Source of the DNA: Candidatus Levybacteria bacterium RIFCSPLOWO2_12_FULL_39_17
Lineage (GTDB): Bacteria > Patescibacteriota > Microgenomatia > Levybacterales > GWA1-39-11
Length of the DNA stretch: 32,132 nt
Direction: 5' to 3'
NCBI GenBank assembly: GCA_001782675.1
Contig: MFPJ01000042.1
Coordinates: forward strand, 1 to 32,132
Shown one piece after another: positions 3,421 through 22,893 of this stretch (position 1 is the first letter of the stretch; every line of letters begins with the position of its first letter). The notes under the pieces are model-generated. The model had not been told where the DNA came from. It saw only the letters and a program-made list of their open reading frames with translations, and did no database searches. The position numbers and the translations under genes were made by a program.

Positions 3421-3810
3421 ATGTTAAGCCAAAATGACCTAAAACAAATACAAAAGATATTCAACCCCGTACAAGTAGACGTTTCGGATTTGAAGAAAGA
3501 TGTTTCGGGCTTGAAAGTGGACGTTTCGGATTTGAAGAAAGATGTTTCGGATTTAAAGACAGATGTTTCAGGCTTGAAAGTGGACGTTTCGGATTTGAAG
3601 AAAGATGTTTCAGGTTTGAAAGTAGACGTTTCGGGCTTGAATAAAGGCTTGACGCAAACACAAAAAGACGTTAAAGACATTAAGAAAGATGTTGCACAAA
3701 CGCGTAAAGATGTAAAGGTGATAATTTCATATTTTGATCGTGAATACGTAGAACTTCGAAAAAGAATAGAGCGAATTGAAGAATTCCTCAGATTACCTCC
3801 AGAAAATTAG
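3421..3810 (+). CDS. Heptad-repeat coiled-coil protein
   Basis: ORF MLSQNDLKQIQKIFNPVQV(DVSDLKK/DVSGLKV)n...; repeated 7-aa units, then a charged C-terminal helix. Confidence 0.75.
   Translation: MLSQNDLKQIQKIFNPVQVDVSDLKKDVSGLKVDVSDLKKDVSDLKTDVSGLKVDVSDLKKDVSGLKVDVSGLNKGLTQTQKDVKDIKKDVAQTRKDVKVIISYFDREYVELRKRIERIEEFLRLPPEN
3466..3645 (+). repeat. 21-bp tandem repeat encoding heptads
   Basis: Repeated gacgtttcggatttgaagaaa / gatgtttcgggcttgaaagtg units, about 8 copies, in frame. Confidence 0.85.
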
Positions 3811-12458: not shown

Positions 12459-13661
12459 ATGTTCGACAGCTTATTTAGTTTATTCTCGCATGATCTTGGT
12501 ATAGATCTTGGGACTGCAAATATTTTGGTGCATGTTAGAGGTAAAGGTATTGCGATCAGGGAGCCCTCAATTGTTGCCCGTCATAATAAAACAAAAAAAA
12601 TTATAGCAGTTGGAGCCGAGGCGAAAAAAATGTTAGGTAAAACTCCCGGGACAATTTCTGCGATTAAACCTCTTGAACATGGGGTGATTTCTGATTTTGA
12701 CGCGGCTTCTTACATGCTTCAGTATTACATAAAAAAGGTGCATGAGGTGGGAACTCCTTTTTACCAATTGGCGCGCCCGCGGGTCGCGGTTGGAATACCA
12801 TCCGGGGTAACGGAGGTAGAGCGGCGTGCTGTTTGGGAAGCGGCGCTTCAAGCGGGCGCGCGGGAATGCTATTTGATTGAAGAACCAATGGCTGCTGCGG
12901 TTGGAGCAGGAGTTTCTGTTTTTGAACCTACGGGAATTATGCTTGTTGATATTGGAGGCGGAACCACTGAGATCGCGGTAATTTCTCTTGGCGGGATAGT
13001 CGTAAACCGATCATTAAAAATTGCGGGGAACGAGATGGATCAGGCTATTATTAATTACATCCGTTTAAGGCACGGCCTTTTAATTGGCGAGAAGACAGCG
13101 GAAGAGGTGAAGATAAAAATAGGAAGCGCATATAAACAAAATAAAAAATCAACCCTTCGGCTTCGCTCAGGGCGAGAAATAAAAAATCAACCCCGATTAG
13201 ATCGGGGTCAAAAATTGGAAGAATCAGAGGTAAAAAACGAAGAAAAACAAATGAAAAAAAATGACATGGAGGACGTGGCTATCGATGAAGGTTTGGGGAA
13301 GGAGAGGATTGCAATAATAAGGGGTAGGGATATAGAAACAGGTTTGCCCAAGAGCCTGCGTATGAACGAAATTGAAATAAGAGAGGCAATCGGACCAATA
13401 ATTTCTCAGATTATTGATTCTGTTATGGAGGTACTCGAAGAGACTCCACCGGAATTGACCGGCGACATATTAGAACATGGAATTATGGTGACGGGCGGAG
13501 GGTCTCTTATTCCGGGAATTGATGAGCTTATAACTGAGAGATCAAGGATCCCGGTGATATTGGTTGAGGATCCGCTTACCACGGTGGTGCGGGGAACTGC
13601 CAGGCTTCTTGAAGAACCCAACCTTCTTAATCAAGTCAAGGTCACTGGCGGCCTGAGATAA
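12459..13661 (+). CDS. mreB: Rod shape-determining protein MreB with insertion
   Basis: DLGIDLGTANILVHVRGKGI, VDIGGGTTEIAVISLGGIV, MVTGGGSLIPGIDELI; atypical segment at about 13130-13290. Confidence 0.94.
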   Translation: MFDSLFSLFSHDLGIDLGTANILVHVRGKGIAIREPSIVARHNKTKKIIAVGAEAKKMLGKTPGTISAIKPLEHGVISDFDAASYMLQYYIKKVHEVGTPFYQLARPRVAVGIPSGVTEVERRAVWEAALQAGARECYLIEEPMAAAVGAGVSVFEPTGIMLVDIGGGTTEIAVISLGGIVVNRSLKIAGNEMDQAIINYIRLRHGLLIGEKTAEEVKIKIGSAYKQNKKSTLRLRSGREIKNQPRLDRGQKLEESEVKNEEKQMKKNDMEDVAIDEGLGKERIAIIRGRDIETGLPKSLRMNEIEIREAIGPIISQIIDSVMEVLEETPPELTGDILEHGIMVTGGGSLIPGIDELITERSRIPVILVEDPLTTVVRGTARLLEEPNLLNQVKVTGGLR

Positions 13662-13967
13662 TTTTCTTCGAATCCCATTCCATTCAAAGCATAACATAAA
13701 TAGCATAGCAAAATTAGTCTTTCGCTTCTAGCGGGGGGGTCTTAGATAATGAGAGTGGGTAAAAAATAACGGCAGAAATTATTTATAGTTTGAGCCTAGC
13801 TCGATTACGGTTTAGCTTTAAAAGTAATTTTAAGAAACAAATATCGTCTGAGGCTAAACAAGTACTAATAATTTGTCCAGATGGACTTTAATTCATCGAT
13901 TATATTGATTCAACAATCCAAACATCTAAATTCTACCCACTGTTATTATCGTAGAGCCCTAGCGGGG

Positions 13968-13996
13968 TTGACAATAGGCCTTATATACATTATTAT
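13968..13996 (+). promoter_or_regulatory. Sigma70-type promoter for the 16S rRNA gene
   Basis: TTGACA, 17-nt spacer, TATTAT; about 190 nt upstream of the 16S 5' end. Confidence 0.7.
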
Positions 13997-14137
13997 ATAG
14001 ATGTTGATTTGGAAGATCGCCTTAATTTGGTTATTACATCAATGATTTGTTCGTAAACACATTTTAACTTCGAAACTTAAGACAAGACAAGCTTTGCCTT
14101 GCATCTCCCAAATCGGCTTGAAATTTGAATTTGCTCC

Positions 14138-14168
14138 TTGACAACAAGACGTTCAGATAGTGGTAGGA
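14138..14168 (+). other. 5' arm of 16S precursor processing stem
   Basis: TTGACAACAAGACGTTCAGATAGTGGTAGGA is complementary to 15901-15935 flanking the other end of 16S. Confidence 0.85.
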
Positions 14169-14183
14169 TCTTTTTGCAATTTT

Positions 14184-15750
<1,567 letters not shown>

Positions 15751-15900
15751 AAATTAGATAACGGATATTAGATTTTGGATTTTAGATATTTTTATCTTTT
15801 ATCCAACATCCGTAATCCAATATCTGGTTTTCCCTTCTCCTGGGACCTTTTAGTAAAAAGGAATGGAGCCTTCTTGAGTTCGCTCAGGAAGTAAAACCAT

Positions 15901-15935
15901 TCCTACCACTATCTGAGCGTCTTGTTGTTTGTCAA
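15901..15935 (+). other. 3' arm of 16S precursor processing stem
   Basis: TCCTACCACTATCTGAGCGTCTTGTTGTTTGTCAA is the reverse complement of 14138-14168 with one G-U pair and a small bulge. Confidence 0.85.
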
Positions 15936-15994
15936 ATTAATCTCTCAGCTTTGCTTCTCTTGACATTTTCCGAGCTATTCCCTACTATTATATT

Positions 15995-18139
15995 GTGGAG
16001 CAAAAAGAGGAAATAAAGCCGCAAACCAATTCTCTGGAGTCCAAAGAAAATCCAAAGTCCTTCTTAATCTTTATTGTTGTTGCGCTTCTGGTTCTTGGAC
16101 TTTCTGCCGGTGTCTATCTTGGAACAAAAAAAGAGCAAAACCCACAAGCACCCCAAGAACAAAAAAAGGAGCAGGCAAGTTTTAATTCTATCTCAAAACA
16201 TACACTCGTTTTTGGGTATTGGGATTCAAATTCTTCCCATATTAATGCTGTAGACTTGAATTCGGGAGTCATACAGGAGGTTGCCGTTCTATCTTCAAAT
16301 ATTAAGAAGGTTACGGTTGTTTCTCCCCAGAAATTAATACTCATCAACCAGACGGATTCAAGAGACCATGGCAAGGAAATAGCAAGTTATGATTTAGGAT
16401 CAAAGCTGACAAGTCCCCTTGTCCCAGCTTCTTCGGGGTTCGGAATAGATGACTATGTCAGTTCTCCCGGCAAACGCTTTCTTGCAACATGGGAAGTAAT
16501 TCCCGGAGGGTCGAGCCTATTGGGAGGCAAATCCCGTGTCTATTCTGTGGATCTTCAGAATCCTGAAGTAAAGAATCTTATTTATGATGAAACCTTCTCA
16601 GCGGGTGTTCCTGTCCATTACCCCGTGGCAGTTCTTGATAATGGAGAAATCTTTCTTGACACTTTTGAGGCCAATACAACTGCCGGGTGGGCAAACGGAA
16701 TGAGTGTTTCAAATTTCACAGGACAGGACAAAAAAGTGCTTTCCTCAATGCTCAGCGGGACATACGGAACGCAGCCAACCTTATCACCGGACGGAAAATA
16801 TCTTGCTTTTGCAGGCTATGATGGGAGTTTGGGATCCGGAATATTTTCGGTAGCTCAAAATGAAAACTTCAGGCAGGCAATTCTTTCTCCAAATACCGTT
16901 GAGATCCTAGATACCAATACGAAACAGCGGATAAGACTGCCAAAATTATCAGGTTTAAACAGGTATCCTAATGTCGCGTGGGATCATGCTTCCGGAAATG
17001 TTATTTATTCCCTTATTTCAAAGAATTCAGCAAATAATGGTGTTTACCTTTATGATATCTCAAAATCCGACTTTAAAAGATTAAGAAGCAGTAAGGAAGG
17101 AGAGCAGAATGATTATTCCGTCATTTCAACACTAAGCAATAATAATTTATTATCAGGAATAAAAGATCCGTCTTCCTCATCTTTGGGCAATCTTGGTGAA
17201 AAATACGCATCTTCATTCAGCGAGATCTCGGTTTACGATTATGCTTTGGAAAAAAGAACTCTCATTGGTGTAAATCAGAGCTTAATCCAATACTTGACTG
17301 TTCTTCAAAATAACTATTTTAAAGACGCGAGAGAAATAGGAAGAATTGATACGAGCAAAGGGGCTGATCGAGAGAAAAATCAACTTCAGCTTCAAACATT
17401 TGTTTTAAAACCCAGCCTTGAACCTAAAAGAATTGAACAGCAAACCTTGCCTATTTGCCGTAATCTTGCGGCAGAACAATGTAATTCCCTGCTTGGTACA
17501 AATTTTGATTCGGATCAAAAAGGTAAAACTTCTAATAATCAATATAATGCCTGCTTTAATCAGCAATTTAAGGAGTTAAGAGCGACACAGGGAGCCTGCT
17601 CAGACAGCCCTTTGTACCTTTACGGGCAGGAAGGGCAAAGAATAGAAATTAAAATAGAGACAGATATTTCTTCATCAAATATTAACTACAATGGAAATTA
17701 CAATGTCGTTTTGGGTAAAAAAGGCGCCATAATTTCAGGCGGAAGGGAAGTTGATAATATAAGTTTTGATTATGTTTCCGCACTAAGACGGCTGCCAAGA
17801 TTAGAATATGGCAAAACGGTCAGGAGCCAAGATTTGAGCTTGATTCTTGAGGAATTTGGCAAGAAACTGGGCCTGAATGATAGGGAGATAAATGATTTAA
17901 TCCTCTCTTTGGAGGGAAAAATTTCGAGTCCTTATGTTTTTGTTTCCTTTTATGATGAAGTAGCATCAAAAGCGATCCTGCCAATTTCATTTAATCCCGC
18001 GCCCGATATTTACAAAAATATTGTTTTTTTCCTTAAGCCTCTTGATGCTCCGCTTGTTTCCGTCGCCCCGCAATTTCCAGAAGTTCCACAGCGTCAAGGT
18101 TTCACCGCGGTTGAAGTAAGCTACATTATTGACAACTAG
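15995..18139 (+). CDS. Membrane-anchored protein with WD40/PD40-like propeller repeats
   Basis: GTG start; N-terminal TM (SFLIFIVVALLVLGLSAGVYLGT); PTLSPDGKYLAFAGYDGS-type propeller motif. Confidence 0.7.
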   Translation: MEQKEEIKPQTNSLESKENPKSFLIFIVVALLVLGLSAGVYLGTKKEQNPQAPQEQKKEQASFNSISKHTLVFGYWDSNSSHINAVDLNSGVIQEVAVLSSNIKKVTVVSPQKLILINQTDSRDHGKEIASYDLGSKLTSPLVPASSGFGIDDYVSSPGKRFLATWEVIPGGSSLLGGKSRVYSVDLQNPEVKNLIYDETFSAGVPVHYPVAVLDNGEIFLDTFEANTTAGWANGMSVSNFTGQDKKVLSSMLSGTYGTQPTLSPDGKYLAFAGYDGSLGSGIFSVAQNENFRQAILSPNTVEILDTNTKQRIRLPKLSGLNRYPNVAWDHASGNVIYSLISKNSANNGVYLYDISKSDFKRLRSSKEGEQNDYSVISTLSNNNLLSGIKDPSSSSLGNLGEKYASSFSEISVYDYALEKRTLIGVNQSLIQYLTVLQNNYFKDAREIGRIDTSKGADREKNQLQLQTFVLKPSLEPKRIEQQTLPICRNLAAEQCNSLLGTNFDSDQKGKTSNNQYNACFNQQFKELRATQGACSDSPLYLYGQEGQRIEIKIETDISSSNINYNGNYNVVLGKKGAIISGGREVDNISFDYVSALRRLPRLEYGKTVRSQDLSLILEEFGKKLGLNDREINDLILSLEGKISSPYVFVSFYDEVASKAILPISFNPAPDIYKNIVFFLKPLDAPLVSVAPQFPEVPQRQGFTAVEVSYIIDN

Positions 18140-18142
18140 TTT

Positions 18143-18442
18143 CTAGTTTTTGGGTTGGGTGCAGCAGAAAGCCTGTCTTCCCAACGAAGTAGTGCACATC
18201 TCATTTCCATCATATTTCACAATTTCCCCCGAAAGACAATAGGATTGAGGCCGGCAGGTGTTTGTGGTTCCGTCAGGATTGACAGCGGGACAGCCGGGCG
18301 TTCCTGTAACTTCAGATGAGGGCACCTCTGTTGCTTCCTGTCTAATATCCTGCTTCTGATTAACCAGGAAAATTGTGACAGGCAAGGAAATAGCAACGAA
18401 CAAGAAAACAATTCCGCTGATTGTTTTATAACCTTCTCCCAC
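18143..18442 (-). CDS. Small anchored Cys-rich protein
   Basis: MGEGYKTISGIVFLFVAISLPVTIFLVNQKQDIRQEA anchor followed by a Cys-rich domain ending FCCTQPKN. Confidence 0.7.
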   Translation of the reverse strand: MGEGYKTISGIVFLFVAISLPVTIFLVNQKQDIRQEATEVPSSEVTGTPGCPAVNPDGTTNTCRPQSYCLSGEIVKYDGNEMCTTSLGRQAFCCTQPKN

Positions 18443-18534
18443 TAAAATTAGTATTGGAGAAAATTAAAATTTTGTCAACCCCAAAGATATCTTAAATAGA
18501 TTTTGAGCTCAATTTGTGCTAAACTATTTATTCT

Positions 18535-18606
18535 GGCGCGGTGGCGAAGTGGTAACGCGGGGGTCTGCAAAACCTCTATGCGAGGGTTCGATTCCCTTCC
18601 GCGCCT
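18535..18606 (+). tRNA. tRNA-Cys (GCA)
   Basis: GGCGCGG/CCGCGCC acceptor, anticodon loop CTGCAAA, T-arm GAGGGTTCGATTCCCTT, discriminator U; CCA not encoded. Confidence 0.93.
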
Positions 18607-18811
18607 CAAGTTGTTAGCCTCCAAAGCCTTTACTTTTTTAATTGGACAAATCGCACAAAAAGCTATAGTTTTCCCGGTGGCCGCGGCAATTTATATTACT
18701 AATGCAATAGCAAACGAATTTGAAAGATCTTGAGAGGTGGTATTCAAAAATCCCGACCCTCCGGGGAGAACAGCCGATCTTTTTTTCGGGGATTGATAGT
18801 GAGTCGAAGAG

Positions 18812-18883
18812 TGGGTCGCCTAAGAGTCGAACTTAGCACCTCTTTCTTATCAGGAAAGCGTTCTACCGATGAACTAGCGACCC
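18812..18883 (-). tRNA. tRNA-Ile (GAT)
   Basis: Reverse strand GGGTCGC...GCGACCC acceptor, CTTTC-CTGATAA-GAAAG anticodon arm, CTAAGTTCGACTCTTAG T-arm. Confidence 0.93.
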
Positions 18884-19128
18884 AAATAATTCTTCAAAAC
18901 TTTTTTTAAATGTGTTCGTCCCCAACCAGTTTTAAAAAACTTCTCTCTGGTTGTCGCATCTCGCTGGTTTAGATAACCTTCTAAATAAATTAGCTTAAAA
19001 GGTTTTCTATGTTTCGTAACATTCACTTTGCCTAAGTTGTGTTCCGCTAATCTTCTTAAAATGTTATTCGAATAACCAACGTACAATTTATTGTCCTTCA
19101 GACTTTGTAGAATGTACAAGTAGTACAT
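18874..19128 (-). CDS. GIY-YIG domain protein (YhbQ/UPF0213-like)
   Basis: MYYLYILQSLKDNKLYVGYSNNILRRLAEHNLGK...TKHRKPFKLIYLEGY; single-domain GIY-YIG family. Confidence 0.85.
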   Translation of the reverse strand: MYYLYILQSLKDNKLYVGYSNNILRRLAEHNLGKVNVTKHRKPFKLIYLEGYLNQRDATTREKFFKTGWGRTHLKKVLKNYLGR

Positions 19129-19145
19129 TCAAATATTTTATCAAA

Positions 19146-19215
19146 GTTCACGAAACCGTTCTTTACCCGTCAAGGTTTTTGCCGAACAAAAATTTAGTCG
19201 GGTAAACCGGTGAAC
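19146..19215. repeat. Nested inverted repeat / structured element
   Basis: GTTCAC(19146)...GTGAAC(19215) encloses TTTACCCG(19162-19169)...CGGGTAAA(19199-19206). Confidence 0.55.
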
Positions 19216-19277
19216 TAAGTGCCCGAGATTTTATATTTTAACAAAGTTTAAGGCTGAAAGACAAGGGATAGCCTTGT

Positions 19278-19913
19278 CTATTGTGCTTGAGGGGGTGGGG
19301 TAGTTATGGCCGGACTTGCCGGAGAGAGCGTTTGTTTTGAAAGCGTAAGATTTAGGGAAAGAGCTTCCTTGAGCACCGATTCATTCTCCCCCAAAACCGT
19401 AACCATGGTTTTATTTAGAAATACGATCGCTGTGTTTACGGGAGGATTGAAGGATTTTTGAAAATAAAGAGTGGCAATTCTTCCAATGCCTCTTTTCGCT
19501 TCGTCTCCGGGACTGATGGCAATTGCATAGGAAATCCTTCCCGTCTCTTGGTTTATATCATTAAATAAAACAGCAGCGGAAGGACCAAAGAAATCGGTCT
19601 CGGCAAGACTTGGAGTCAATTTGACGCCAGTTATAGCCTTCGGATCAAATACTGCTTCAATTTGAACTCCGCTGATATCAACGGGTCCTGTTTCAATCAT
19701 GATATCCACAGTTGAAACAGGAGTTATTTGTTCTGAAAGATCGATATTTTGAGGGTTGAAAAAAATCCGGGCTGTTTTTTGGATTACCTTTTTGGTTGGT
19801 TGGGGAGAAACCTCATTGCGGGATTTTTGATTTTCAGCGCTTGCCGCCAAAAATAGCAAGACTCCCGTGACTGCCGCCAGTATTAAAATTAAAATTGTGG
19901 TTTTCTTAGGCAT
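19278..19913 (-). CDS. Membrane-anchored cohesin-domain-like protein
   Basis: N-terminal TM; ARIFFNPQNIDLSEQITPVSTVDIMIETGPVDISGVQIEAVFDPKAI...ISYAIAISPGDEAKRGIGRIATLYFQ matches the cohesin beta-sandwich pattern; Pro-rich C-terminus. Confidence 0.7.
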   Translation of the reverse strand: MPKKTTILILILAAVTGVLLFLAASAENQKSRNEVSPQPTKKVIQKTARIFFNPQNIDLSEQITPVSTVDIMIETGPVDISGVQIEAVFDPKAITGVKLTPSLAETDFFGPSAAVLFNDINQETGRISYAIAISPGDEAKRGIGRIATLYFQKSFNPPVNTAIVFLNKTMVTVLGENESVLKEALSLNLTLSKQTLSPASPAITTPPPQAQ

Positions 19914-20046
19914 AGTAGTAATATTAAATATAAAAAATAAAATATAAAATATCTGTTTTCATTTTATGCAACTTGGCCTTCTCCTGTCAATTCCCCCAGT
20001 TAATACTAAATACTTAATACAAAATACTAAATACTGCGCGAAGCGC

Positions 20047-22893
20047 TTAGTCTCCGTTTCTTATCGCAAAACCCCTAAGCAATATATTAAGATCCATCTC
20101 CTCAACTTTCCCGTCATCATTTAAGTCCGAAAGGGTCTTTTTATCGCAGGTTTTATCTCCAAAGCAGGAGATAAAGATATTGTAATCCAGGATGTCCATG
20201 GTATTGTTTTGATCCAAGTCTCCCGAGACAAGGGCGACCTGAGGGATTTGAGACGAAGTTCCCGGAAGTCCGCTTAGATTTTGAATTCCGGAAGCAAGTT
20301 TAAGCAAAGTATTATCAAGCTTTATTTTAATCGTGTGCGGGCCTGAAAGTGTTTGCCCCGTATTTACATTTCCCGCGAACTTTGTTCCGTCAAAAGTGAG
20401 AGTGCCTGACGAATTCGCAACTTCCTGATTTTGGGCATTTTTTATAATTATCCTTGCTTCCCGTGTTTTTCTTGCCGGATTCGTATTGCCGCCCGCGCCG
20501 CTTCCGATTCCGGGCATTACGGCCGAGATTAAAAGAGGAATTCCCCCTTGTGGTTGAGTCGGAGTCACGGTAACGGTTGGAACTCCGGTGAGACCAGCCG
20601 TTGGTGTTCTGGTGGCAGTGGGCGTGGAAGTGGTGGGAGTCGAGGTTGGCGGCGGAGCAGATGGTTGATAGCAGACTGTGGCATGAAGCGTGGTTGCATA
20701 TTGACCACCATCAGGGTTAGCAAGAGATTCTGCCTCTAATTCGAGATTCTGGATGTCTGTCAATGTCCATGAGCCGCCGCCAGGCTTGCTAGTGAACTGT
20801 TCTTGATATGTAGTATAGGCTTCGCTGCTGGCCATGGTTCGCGTAGCGCCGAGATTCTTGTTTGTTCCCAGCACCTGATTAGCTCTTGCCCGATGCGTCA
20901 AACTGCCCCAGTTTGTTCTTGCCCTCCATTCTGCGGTTACCCAATTAATGGTAGTGCCAGATTGAATGTTAATCGGATTTGCCAATGCGTAACGTTGAAT
21001 CTCCCCAGCAGTACCTTCAAATATCTCGGATGTATCATCATCGTGAGGAGCATTAACTGCAGTTACTTTGTTTATGCTGTTCCACCACTGGTCAGGACTA
21101 CTAACAGCAGTAGTCTCTAGGGTTTCTTGGCTGCCTGAACACGCCAGCGGAGATGGTACGGGGGTTGAAGTGGACGGTGGAGGAGTGGACGATGACCCTG
21201 TACAGCAGCATACATTGTCGCCGCAGGGGGCTGAAGGGAAAAAGTAGCCCTTCCCGCCTGACGTACAAGAAGTTTTACTGCCGCAATAACCGCCTGAAAA
21301 CTTTTGCTTTACACATTCGCTGCTGCACGAGCTTGGGGGCGACTTAGTGGGGGTGGGGGCGCCGCCGGAACAGCAGCATCGAACTGCGCCCGGAGGGCCT
21401 TCAACATCACATTTTTGATTTCCTACATCACTATAACCTGATGAGCATATGCCCATACATGTTCCGTTTGAATATCCATTTGAAGTACAGTAATTACTAC
21501 AGGTTGACCCCCCCGTACTTGCTACGCAGGCTCCGTTTTGACATACCTTGCCGGTACCGCAAGGAGTGGCAGTGCCCCCTGGTAAACATCCGCCTGCATT
21601 GCAATAGACCTGCATGACGCTCGTATTGTTATAACAGTAATCCTCAACAGAAGCGCCGCTTACACCGGTACACTTGCCTTTTACAGTTGGATCATTAGTG
21701 GGATCGGTATCCGTGCATGTCCCCCCGCCTGCGGCCGCATAAGTTACGGTAGCGGTCCAAGTCGTCCCTCCCGTAACTCGAACACTGCAGAGGCGATCGG
21801 CAATAGCATCATTATCATTGCACCCGTCCCACTTAGAGAAATTATAAGTTATGCCATTGGACAGAAATTGTTGTGGCGCGTCCAAGCGCGTAACAATGTC
21901 GCCGGTGCTGGGCTTGGAATAACCATCAGCGTCAGTGGTGCCGCCGAATCCTCCTCCATAACCATCGGTGATGGGCACGCCGGTGATCGGTGAAGATTTA
22001 ACTACAAGAGTATTGGTGCCTCCGCCGCCGGTTCCGCTGCAGTCGTCTCTTGTAGTAAAACTCCAGGGCAAACTATTGGTTTCTCCTGCCGCGTTTTTCG
22101 ATTTTACCCCCCAATAATACTTCCAGCCGGGGATTAGTCCCGTTTGGGCGTAGGGTGTGCTGGTAGAGATTGGAACAACGCCCGCATCAGTGAAGGGGTC
22201 ATTATTGCCGTCATTATCACCGTCAACATAAAGCGTGTTGGTAGTGCCCGAGTCTGCGCTCCACGAATATGAAACCTTGACCGTGTTTCCCTCGCAGATT
22301 CCAACAGATGTGCTGTTGTTTGTGGGCGATGATAAAGTTGGGACATTTGGCTTGGATGTCGCAGGAGGGGGCGGAGCATCGGTGGTTGCGGGAGGAGGGG
22401 GCGGAGTGCTGTCACACTGAACATCCTGATCGGCAAACTTATATATAAGATCATTAGAGTCGCCTTTAGGATATATAGAGTAGTCAACGGTAGTCCTACT
22501 GCTACAATTTGTATCCCATTCCAATTCATAAGTCGTTGTTTCGCCATCAAGGGGATCATCTATATCATCAAATGCCACCCAAAGTTTACTAATTTCCGAA
22601 CCCGCAGGTATAGTGACAGAGCCACTTATTATTGTGTCAGTTCCGCCTGAAGTTTTTTTCTGTTTGAATCTGTAATCTACAATTCGGAATATCGTGCCCT
22701 CCTTATTGATAAATGCTGCTTGCATGTAATCTTTATGTGCTCCGACTGCGGCTCGTTGGCGGATGTCTTGCTGTTGGCCGACAAGAGAAATTGTGATCGG
22801 AATAGATAGGGCAAGGGCTCCTATAAATAGAATTGCCGCGGTTCTTTTATAAGAAGAAAATATAAATTCAATACCGGTCTTTAATTTTTCCAT
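20047..22893 (-). CDS. Large multidomain surface protein: anchor, FN3-like, Cys-rich repeats, Pro/Thr linkers, C-terminal dockerin
   Basis: N-terminal TM plus LVGQQQDIRQRAA; FN3-like domain at about 22050-22340; two CCC-ending Cys-rich segments; dockerin GDLDQNNTMDILDYNIFISCF...SDLNDDGKVEEMDLNILLRGF. Confidence 0.85.
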   Translation of the reverse strand: MEKLKTGIEFIFSSYKRTAAILFIGALALSIPITISLVGQQQDIRQRAAVGAHKDYMQAAFINKEGTIFRIVDYRFKQKKTSGGTDTIISGSVTIPAGSEISKLWVAFDDIDDPLDGETTTYELEWDTNCSSRTTVDYSIYPKGDSNDLIYKFADQDVQCDSTPPPPPATTDAPPPPATSKPNVPTLSSPTNNSTSVGICEGNTVKVSYSWSADSGTTNTLYVDGDNDGNNDPFTDAGVVPISTSTPYAQTGLIPGWKYYWGVKSKNAAGETNSLPWSFTTRDDCSGTGGGGTNTLVVKSSPITGVPITDGYGGGFGGTTDADGYSKPSTGDIVTRLDAPQQFLSNGITYNFSKWDGCNDNDAIADRLCSVRVTGGTTWTATVTYAAAGGGTCTDTDPTNDPTVKGKCTGVSGASVEDYCYNNTSVMQVYCNAGGCLPGGTATPCGTGKVCQNGACVASTGGSTCSNYCTSNGYSNGTCMGICSSGYSDVGNQKCDVEGPPGAVRCCCSGGAPTPTKSPPSSCSSECVKQKFSGGYCGSKTSCTSGGKGYFFPSAPCGDNVCCCTGSSSTPPPSTSTPVPSPLACSGSQETLETTAVSSPDQWWNSINKVTAVNAPHDDDTSEIFEGTAGEIQRYALANPINIQSGTTINWVTAEWRARTNWGSLTHRARANQVLGTNKNLGATRTMASSEAYTTYQEQFTSKPGGGSWTLTDIQNLELEAESLANPDGGQYATTLHATVCYQPSAPPPTSTPTTSTPTATRTPTAGLTGVPTVTVTPTQPQGGIPLLISAVMPGIGSGAGGNTNPARKTREARIIIKNAQNQEVANSSGTLTFDGTKFAGNVNTGQTLSGPHTIKIKLDNTLLKLASGIQNLSGLPGTSSQIPQVALVSGDLDQNNTMDILDYNIFISCFGDKTCDKKTLSDLNDDGKVEEMDLNILLRGFAIRNGD

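Follow-up and report, generated by a model that had tools for sequence, protein, structure and literature searches.

A conserved pair of adjacent X-dockerin and membrane-anchored cohesin genes in Levybacteria: a probable non-cellulosomal surface-docking system

Introduction

Why does a Levybacteria-type Patescibacterium (CPR) with a genome of 0.9 Mb carry a cohesin gene directly beside a dockerin gene? Cohesins and dockerins are known to recognize each other specifically, as receptor and ligand. To our knowledge, the mechanism by which CPR bacteria retain large proteins on their surface and adhere to partner cells is largely unknown. We analyzed a 32,132-nucleotide stretch of this genome (the window) together with genomes of the same order. 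The two genes quite probably encode a non-cellulosomal surface-docking pair, which retains adhesin-like cargo at the membrane.

Results

Locus and gene order

The features of the locus are as follows.

19278..19913, minus strand: cohesin gene ("socket"), 211 aa, membrane-anchored, with a single cohesin (ORF, family, AF2 and Foldseek)
20047..22893, minus strand: dockerin-bearing cargo gene, 948 aa (ORF; Dockerin_1)
19914..20046, strand not applicable: intergenic gap of 133 bp
19990-19961, minus strand: sigma-70-like site inside the gap, 11/12 match (consensus scan only)

The ORF list agrees with the first-pass annotation in that the genes are adjacent and run in the same direction, with the dockerin gene upstream. 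A promoter-like site was detected by the consensus scan for both genes. The strong site in the gap allows separate transcription of the cohesin gene, which may have its own promoter besides the upstream one; the two genes may therefore not be strictly co-transcribed. Family profile searches of the whole genome revealed exactly one cohesin of the TM-cohesin family and one dockerin. The genome also contains three sortase genes, one of them at the window start (6-296, sortase domain), so the cohesin–dockerin clip would not be the only anchoring route of the cell.

Several other features of the window were recorded. A full-length 16S rRNA gene is located at 14181-15748, and no 23S rRNA gene was found inside the searched stretch 13500-20100. 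The ORF at 3421-3810 has near-perfect heptad-like repeats (VSDLKKDVSGLK...) and likely forms a coiled coil. A 99-aa Cys-containing protein, similar to the cargo protein in its N-terminus, is encoded at 18143-18442. Its homologue in the congener G001 (L003 622-993) is also located downstream of the cohesin gene, which indicates that local synteny is kept within the genus.

The membrane-anchored cohesin

Two features were distinguished within the 211-aa protein.

19344..19775, minus strand: cohesin domain, about residues 47-190 (alignment, PDB profile, AF2, Foldseek)
19842..19901, minus strand: transmembrane anchor at the N-terminus, residues 5-24, preceded by MPKK (sequence)

In the single-protein scan, the window cohesin alone gave no Pfam match above the threshold, and the search of its genome with PF00963 (Cohesin) returned no match. 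Relatives were not found by a single-protein back-translated query against genome contigs; a narrow-alignment search retrieved them at 20 named loci, in records of Candidatus Levybacteria / Levyibacteriota and other Microgenomates. Among the aligned family members, 28/29 matched PF00963 (best E 4e-13), and the family profile returned almost exclusively cohesins when compared with all PDB sequences. The AF2 model of residues 40-200 was a pure beta fold with pLDDT 92.6 and pTM 0.86. All 50 Foldseek matches listed for this model were solved cohesins (TM up to 0.78); CohA2 of Clostridium acetobutylicum was at the top of the list, which included the anchoring cohesins OlpA and OlpC. The cohesin-like beta-sandwich suspected in the first-pass annotation was thus confirmed at the level of fold, and judging by family profile and model, the product of 19278-19913 is a cohesin. 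Q84, E86, G125, and G144 are among the columns that are invariant in all 29 aligned members. With the YDP anchor as reference point, Q84 and E86 would lie on the strand by which the C. thermocellum cohesin faces dockerin.

Residues T5, L8, I9, and L12 of the anchor are near-invariant across the family, and an AXA-like site behind the hydrophobic helix was detected in only 8/29 members. The helix is probably an uncleaved anchor. From the positive-inside rule, together with the absence of any consistent cleavage motif behind the helix, we predict a topology that exposes the C-terminal part outside. The helix and the all-beta domain are connected by a linker containing Pro and Thr.

The dockerin-bearing cargo protein

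The 948-aa protein comprises the following parts.

20050..20223, minus strand: dockerin, residues 891-948, at the extreme C-terminus, with two calcium loops and the Cys pair C910/C916
20224..20547, minus strand: X-like module, about residues 783-890, abutting the dockerin (family alignment A8)
21190..21720, minus strand: Cys-rich region, residues 392-568, with 24 cysteines (sequence)
22024..22347, minus strand: FN3-like module, residues 183-290, a weak match (PF00041 E 0.054, PDB FN3con E 0.044)
22780..22842, minus strand: hydrophobic segment near the N-terminus, residues 18-38, with GQQQDIRQRA behind it (sequence)

We define a dockerin by two duplicated 12-residue calcium loops (DxNxDxxxxxxD), each with an F-helix. 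Both loops of the previously annotated two-repeat dockerin are present (residues 892-903 and 923-934), and AF2 modelled the helices in a homologue. Pfam Dockerin_1 (PF00404) matched residues 891-938 with 19.9 bits in the single-protein scan, just below the cut-off of 22.9, and with 26.2 bits, above the cut-off, in the genome search. The family dockerin profile matched the window copy with E 1.1e-23 and no other dockerin of that type in the genome. In nearly all family members the dockerin lies at or close to the extreme C-terminus, and the Cys pair is conserved, with at least two cysteines in 54/55 dockerins.

Immediately N-terminal to the dockerin is a module that the first-pass annotation lacked. 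This beta-type X-like module of ~100 aa was found in 63/77 dockerin ORFs, always in the same position; its only two occurrences without a dockerin were in ORFs cut at the locus end. Its consensus is ...GIG..GD...NP....R.....Y....G.F.G....G.....G.Y..K.K....L....PGI..I..G. A search of PDB with the module profile up to E 10 matched solely the X-modules of the ScaA XDoc from Acetivibrio cellulolyticus (E 0.05, 32–41 residues covered), which is suggestive of kinship with cellulosomal X-modules. Related transthyretin-like folds also carry this motif, and the match therefore falls short of proof. The order of the X-like module and the dockerin is likewise suggestive of an XDoc (X-module–dockerin) layout, in which an Ig-like X-module adjoins the dockerin on its N-terminal side.

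Of the other modules proposed earlier, the Cys-rich one was recovered in the sequence, and the FN3-like one stands as a tentative assignment. No Pfam family matched the Cys-rich region, and outside the parts listed the protein has no assignment. As previously noted, there was no glycoside hydrolase, and Pfam and NCBIfam scans found no enzyme domain of any kind. Pfam PAGK and Defensin_2 and NCBIfam SAR2788, which appeared in the scans of the two proteins, were far under the cut-offs and were dropped. The protein ends in the dockerin (...FAIRNGD), and an LPXTG-type C-terminal sorting signal is absent.

The N-terminal hydrophobic segment is a putative export signal or anchor. An N-terminus composed of a hydrophobic helix, P-[LIV]-T, a few residues, and Q..Q..RQxA is shared by the products of 20047-22893 and 18143-18442 and several surface proteins of relatives; it seems to be a motif peculiar to the clade, serving export or anchoring. 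The cargo could be anchored by its own helix, the dockerin–cohesin contact only closing a loop or linking the protein laterally into a coat. The QQQDIRQRA stretch without a classical AXA site speaks for such anchoring, as do cohesins in eight dockerin proteins of relatives, which would permit chains. However, the segment may be a cleaved signal, and C-terminal dockerins of known systems serve attachment; we consider anchoring by the cargo helix rather unlikely and favor retention through the dockerin.

Conserved pairing across the order

The TM-cohesin family was found in 69/82 genomes of the order and the dockerin family in 61/82. Both were present in 57 genomes and neither in 9; 12 genomes had the cohesin only and 4 the dockerin only. 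With phylogeny ignored, the co-occurrence was significant over all 82 genomes (Fisher p 4e-4) and in the high-quality genomes (Fisher p 0.017). A dockerin gene was located immediately upstream on the same strand of 46/65 stand-alone cohesin genes (a gene of G038 that appears twice being counted once), which corresponds to 45/57 genomes, with a median gap of 89 bp in the 46 pairs. Since most of these ~1-Mb genomes hold few dockerins, such adjacency is far beyond chance. Conserved co-occurrence in relatives, on which the first-pass annotation had made its proposal depend, was therefore observed.

The exceptions were concentrated in a few lineages, e.g., G024/G027/G031 and G012/G028, in which the neighbours of the cohesin gene are different ones, for the most part housekeeping genes, and a dockerin was not detected. 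Genomes with a TM-cohesin and no detectable dockerin were G012, G015, G024, G027, G028, G031, and others. Such cohesins are possibly orphan sockets, have a diverged partner, or capture a dockerin protein of another organism.

Interaction of the two proteins was addressed by a fusion model and by coevolution tests. The model was built for the relative L073, whose neighbouring dockerin and cohesin genes are naturally in frame, and the intervening stop codons were read as residues. AF2 folded both domains, and the model showed no confident interface between them (pTM 0.55). A mirror-tree test of cohesin–dockerin coevolution was not significant, nor was a partial Mantel test of the two distance matrices (p about 0.11; 43 pairs). 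The lack of interface confidence and of a coevolution signal, together with the 12 genomes in which a cohesin but no dockerin was detected, would fit an independent membrane-tethered cohesin with an adhesive or structural role and a dockerin that binds elsewhere. We regard this as improbable, given the adjacency in 45/57 genomes, the significant co-occurrence (phylogeny ignored), the specific receptor–ligand relationship known for these domains, and the lack of a second cohesin of the TM-cohesin family in the genome of the window. The reading of the two proteins as docking partners is retained below.

A second set of cohesin-like proteins in the order, of ~370-436 aa, was also recorded. Several of these proteins are also terminated by a dockerin and may possibly be chain-forming adaptors. 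Pfam cohesins were detected in 111/380 sampled Patescibacteria genomes, often in frames of 450-550 aa and sometimes in tandem genes. The phenomenon may thus extend well beyond the order.

Cargo of the relatives

Domains identified in the 77 scanned dockerin proteins were SdrD_B (17), VWA (10), CarboxypepD_reg (10), cohesin (8), SpaA (5), subtilase (3), CBM_4_9 (2), and GH26 (1). The neighbouring gene in the nearest relative, the congener G001, encodes a protein with VWA, SdrD_B, and a dockerin. The first-pass annotation favored adhesion over polysaccharide degradation; the far greater frequency of SdrD_B, VWA, SpaA, and CarboxypepD_reg upholds this preference. It is a tendency with exceptions, since one GH26 protein and three subtilases also have this dockerin. 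The cargo, including that of the window, resembles adhesins more closely than enzymes, although part of the set is probably enzymatic.

A cellulosome in the strict sense is a multi-cohesin scaffoldin integrating many dockerin-bearing cellulases. The genome of the window has one cohesin of the family, one dockerin, and a cargo without a catalytic domain, and the absence of scaffoldin and enzymes rules out cellulosome membership. A reduced cellulosome, in which the cohesin would recruit secreted hydrolases for degradation of polysaccharides or proteins, is quite unlikely: Microgenomates cohesins and dockerins have been published as a cellulosome (PMC9123182) and GH26, subtilase, and CBM_4_9 do occur in dockerin proteins of relatives, but the neighbouring anchor has a single cohesin and no tandem scaffoldin, non-catalytic modules such as SdrD_B and VWA dominate the cargo, and no enzyme domain was found in the only dockerin protein of this genome.

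Discussion

Levybacteria probably use cellulosome-type parts to fasten large proteins to the cell surface, and the best reading is that the clip holds adhesin-like proteins at the membrane independently of sortase. The 211-aa protein would be inserted in the cytoplasmic membrane by its N-terminal helix and expose a single cohesin to the outside, carried by a short linker rich in Pro and Thr. The cargo protein of 948 aa would be exported and then retained at the cell surface by calcium-dependent binding of its C-terminal X-like module and dockerin to the cohesin. Its FN3-like, Cys-rich, and beta modules would face outward and make contact with partner cells or surfaces. Where a relative has several dockerin proteins, its one or two cohesins could be a shared socket for interchangeable adhesins.

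A wider proposal is more tentative, and we hold it to be possible but on balance doubtful: Levybacteria, and possibly many Patescibacteria, may display interchangeable host-contact adhesins via a dedicated, reversible, calcium-gated clip of X-dockerin and TM-cohesin, which would be a display system of CPR epibionts separate mechanically and evolutionarily from cellulosomes. If this display reading is true, the double proteins with cohesin and dockerin would build chains or coats. The system is compact, with two genes conserved across the order, and the idea of the cohesin as an adhesin socket can be tested with two recombinant domains. Our data also suggest that "cellulosome" annotations in Microgenomates, and the carbon-cycling inferences derived from them, may need revising.

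Proteins with cohesins and dockerins are known outside cellulosomes (Peer et al. 2009, as cited in PMC10066038). The fold of the window cohesin matches such non-cellulosomal cohesins from Archaeoglobus (2xdh) and Clostridium perfringens (2vo8, 2jh2) by Foldseek; unlike the other cases, the Levybacterial one combines an order-wide adjacent pair, a TM-anchored single cohesin, and an X-like module in Patescibacteria. Closer in phylogeny, Ca. Shapirobacterales express cohesin and dockerin genes, and "cellulosomes" of Ca. Roizmanbacterium have been mentioned (available text of PMC9123182, its ref. 117). Both belong to the Microgenomates clade and share the same domain families; that text presents them as evidence for cellulose degradation and makes no mention of gene pairing, a TM-anchored cohesin, the X-like module, or adhesin cargo. 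A study of Patescibacteria genetics lists, among the essential genes that it discusses, the one for SEML1_0315, a Saccharibacteria protein with a dockerin; targeting of host glycans is only a speculative role for it (PMC10633639). In searches of the open-licence literature on dockerins of Microgenomates, Patescibacteria, and CPR, an adjacent X-dockerin/TM-cohesin unit was not found described. While Microgenomates cohesins and dockerins and XDoc adhesion complexes are known, this conserved adjacent unit appears to be new.

OlpA of Clostridium thermocellum is held by SLH domains. OlpA and OlpC (3ul4, 4dh2), both matched by the window model, resemble the Levybacterial protein as single surface-anchoring cohesins; their partners, unlike the Levybacterial cargo, are cellulosomal enzymes or scaffoldins. 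The XDoc of CttA and the ScaE cohesin form a cell-adhesion complex of Ruminococcus flavefaciens (PMC4266597), and a related XMod-Doc:Coh complex has been described from a gut Ruminococcus (PMC7456326). Adhesion complexes of the CttA–ScaE type are distinguished by the extreme mechanical stability of XDoc:Coh. In contrast to CttA–ScaE, the Levybacterial anchor is an N-terminal TM helix, and the cargo has no recognised cellulose-binding module and no cellulosome around it. The X-module kinship is suggestive (E 0.05). Both systems have one cell-attached cohesin, a non-catalytic adhesin cargo, and a module adjoining the dockerin, which is an X-module in CttA and an X-like one in Levybacteria; in our best reading, the Levybacterial pair would work like the CttA–ScaE complex.
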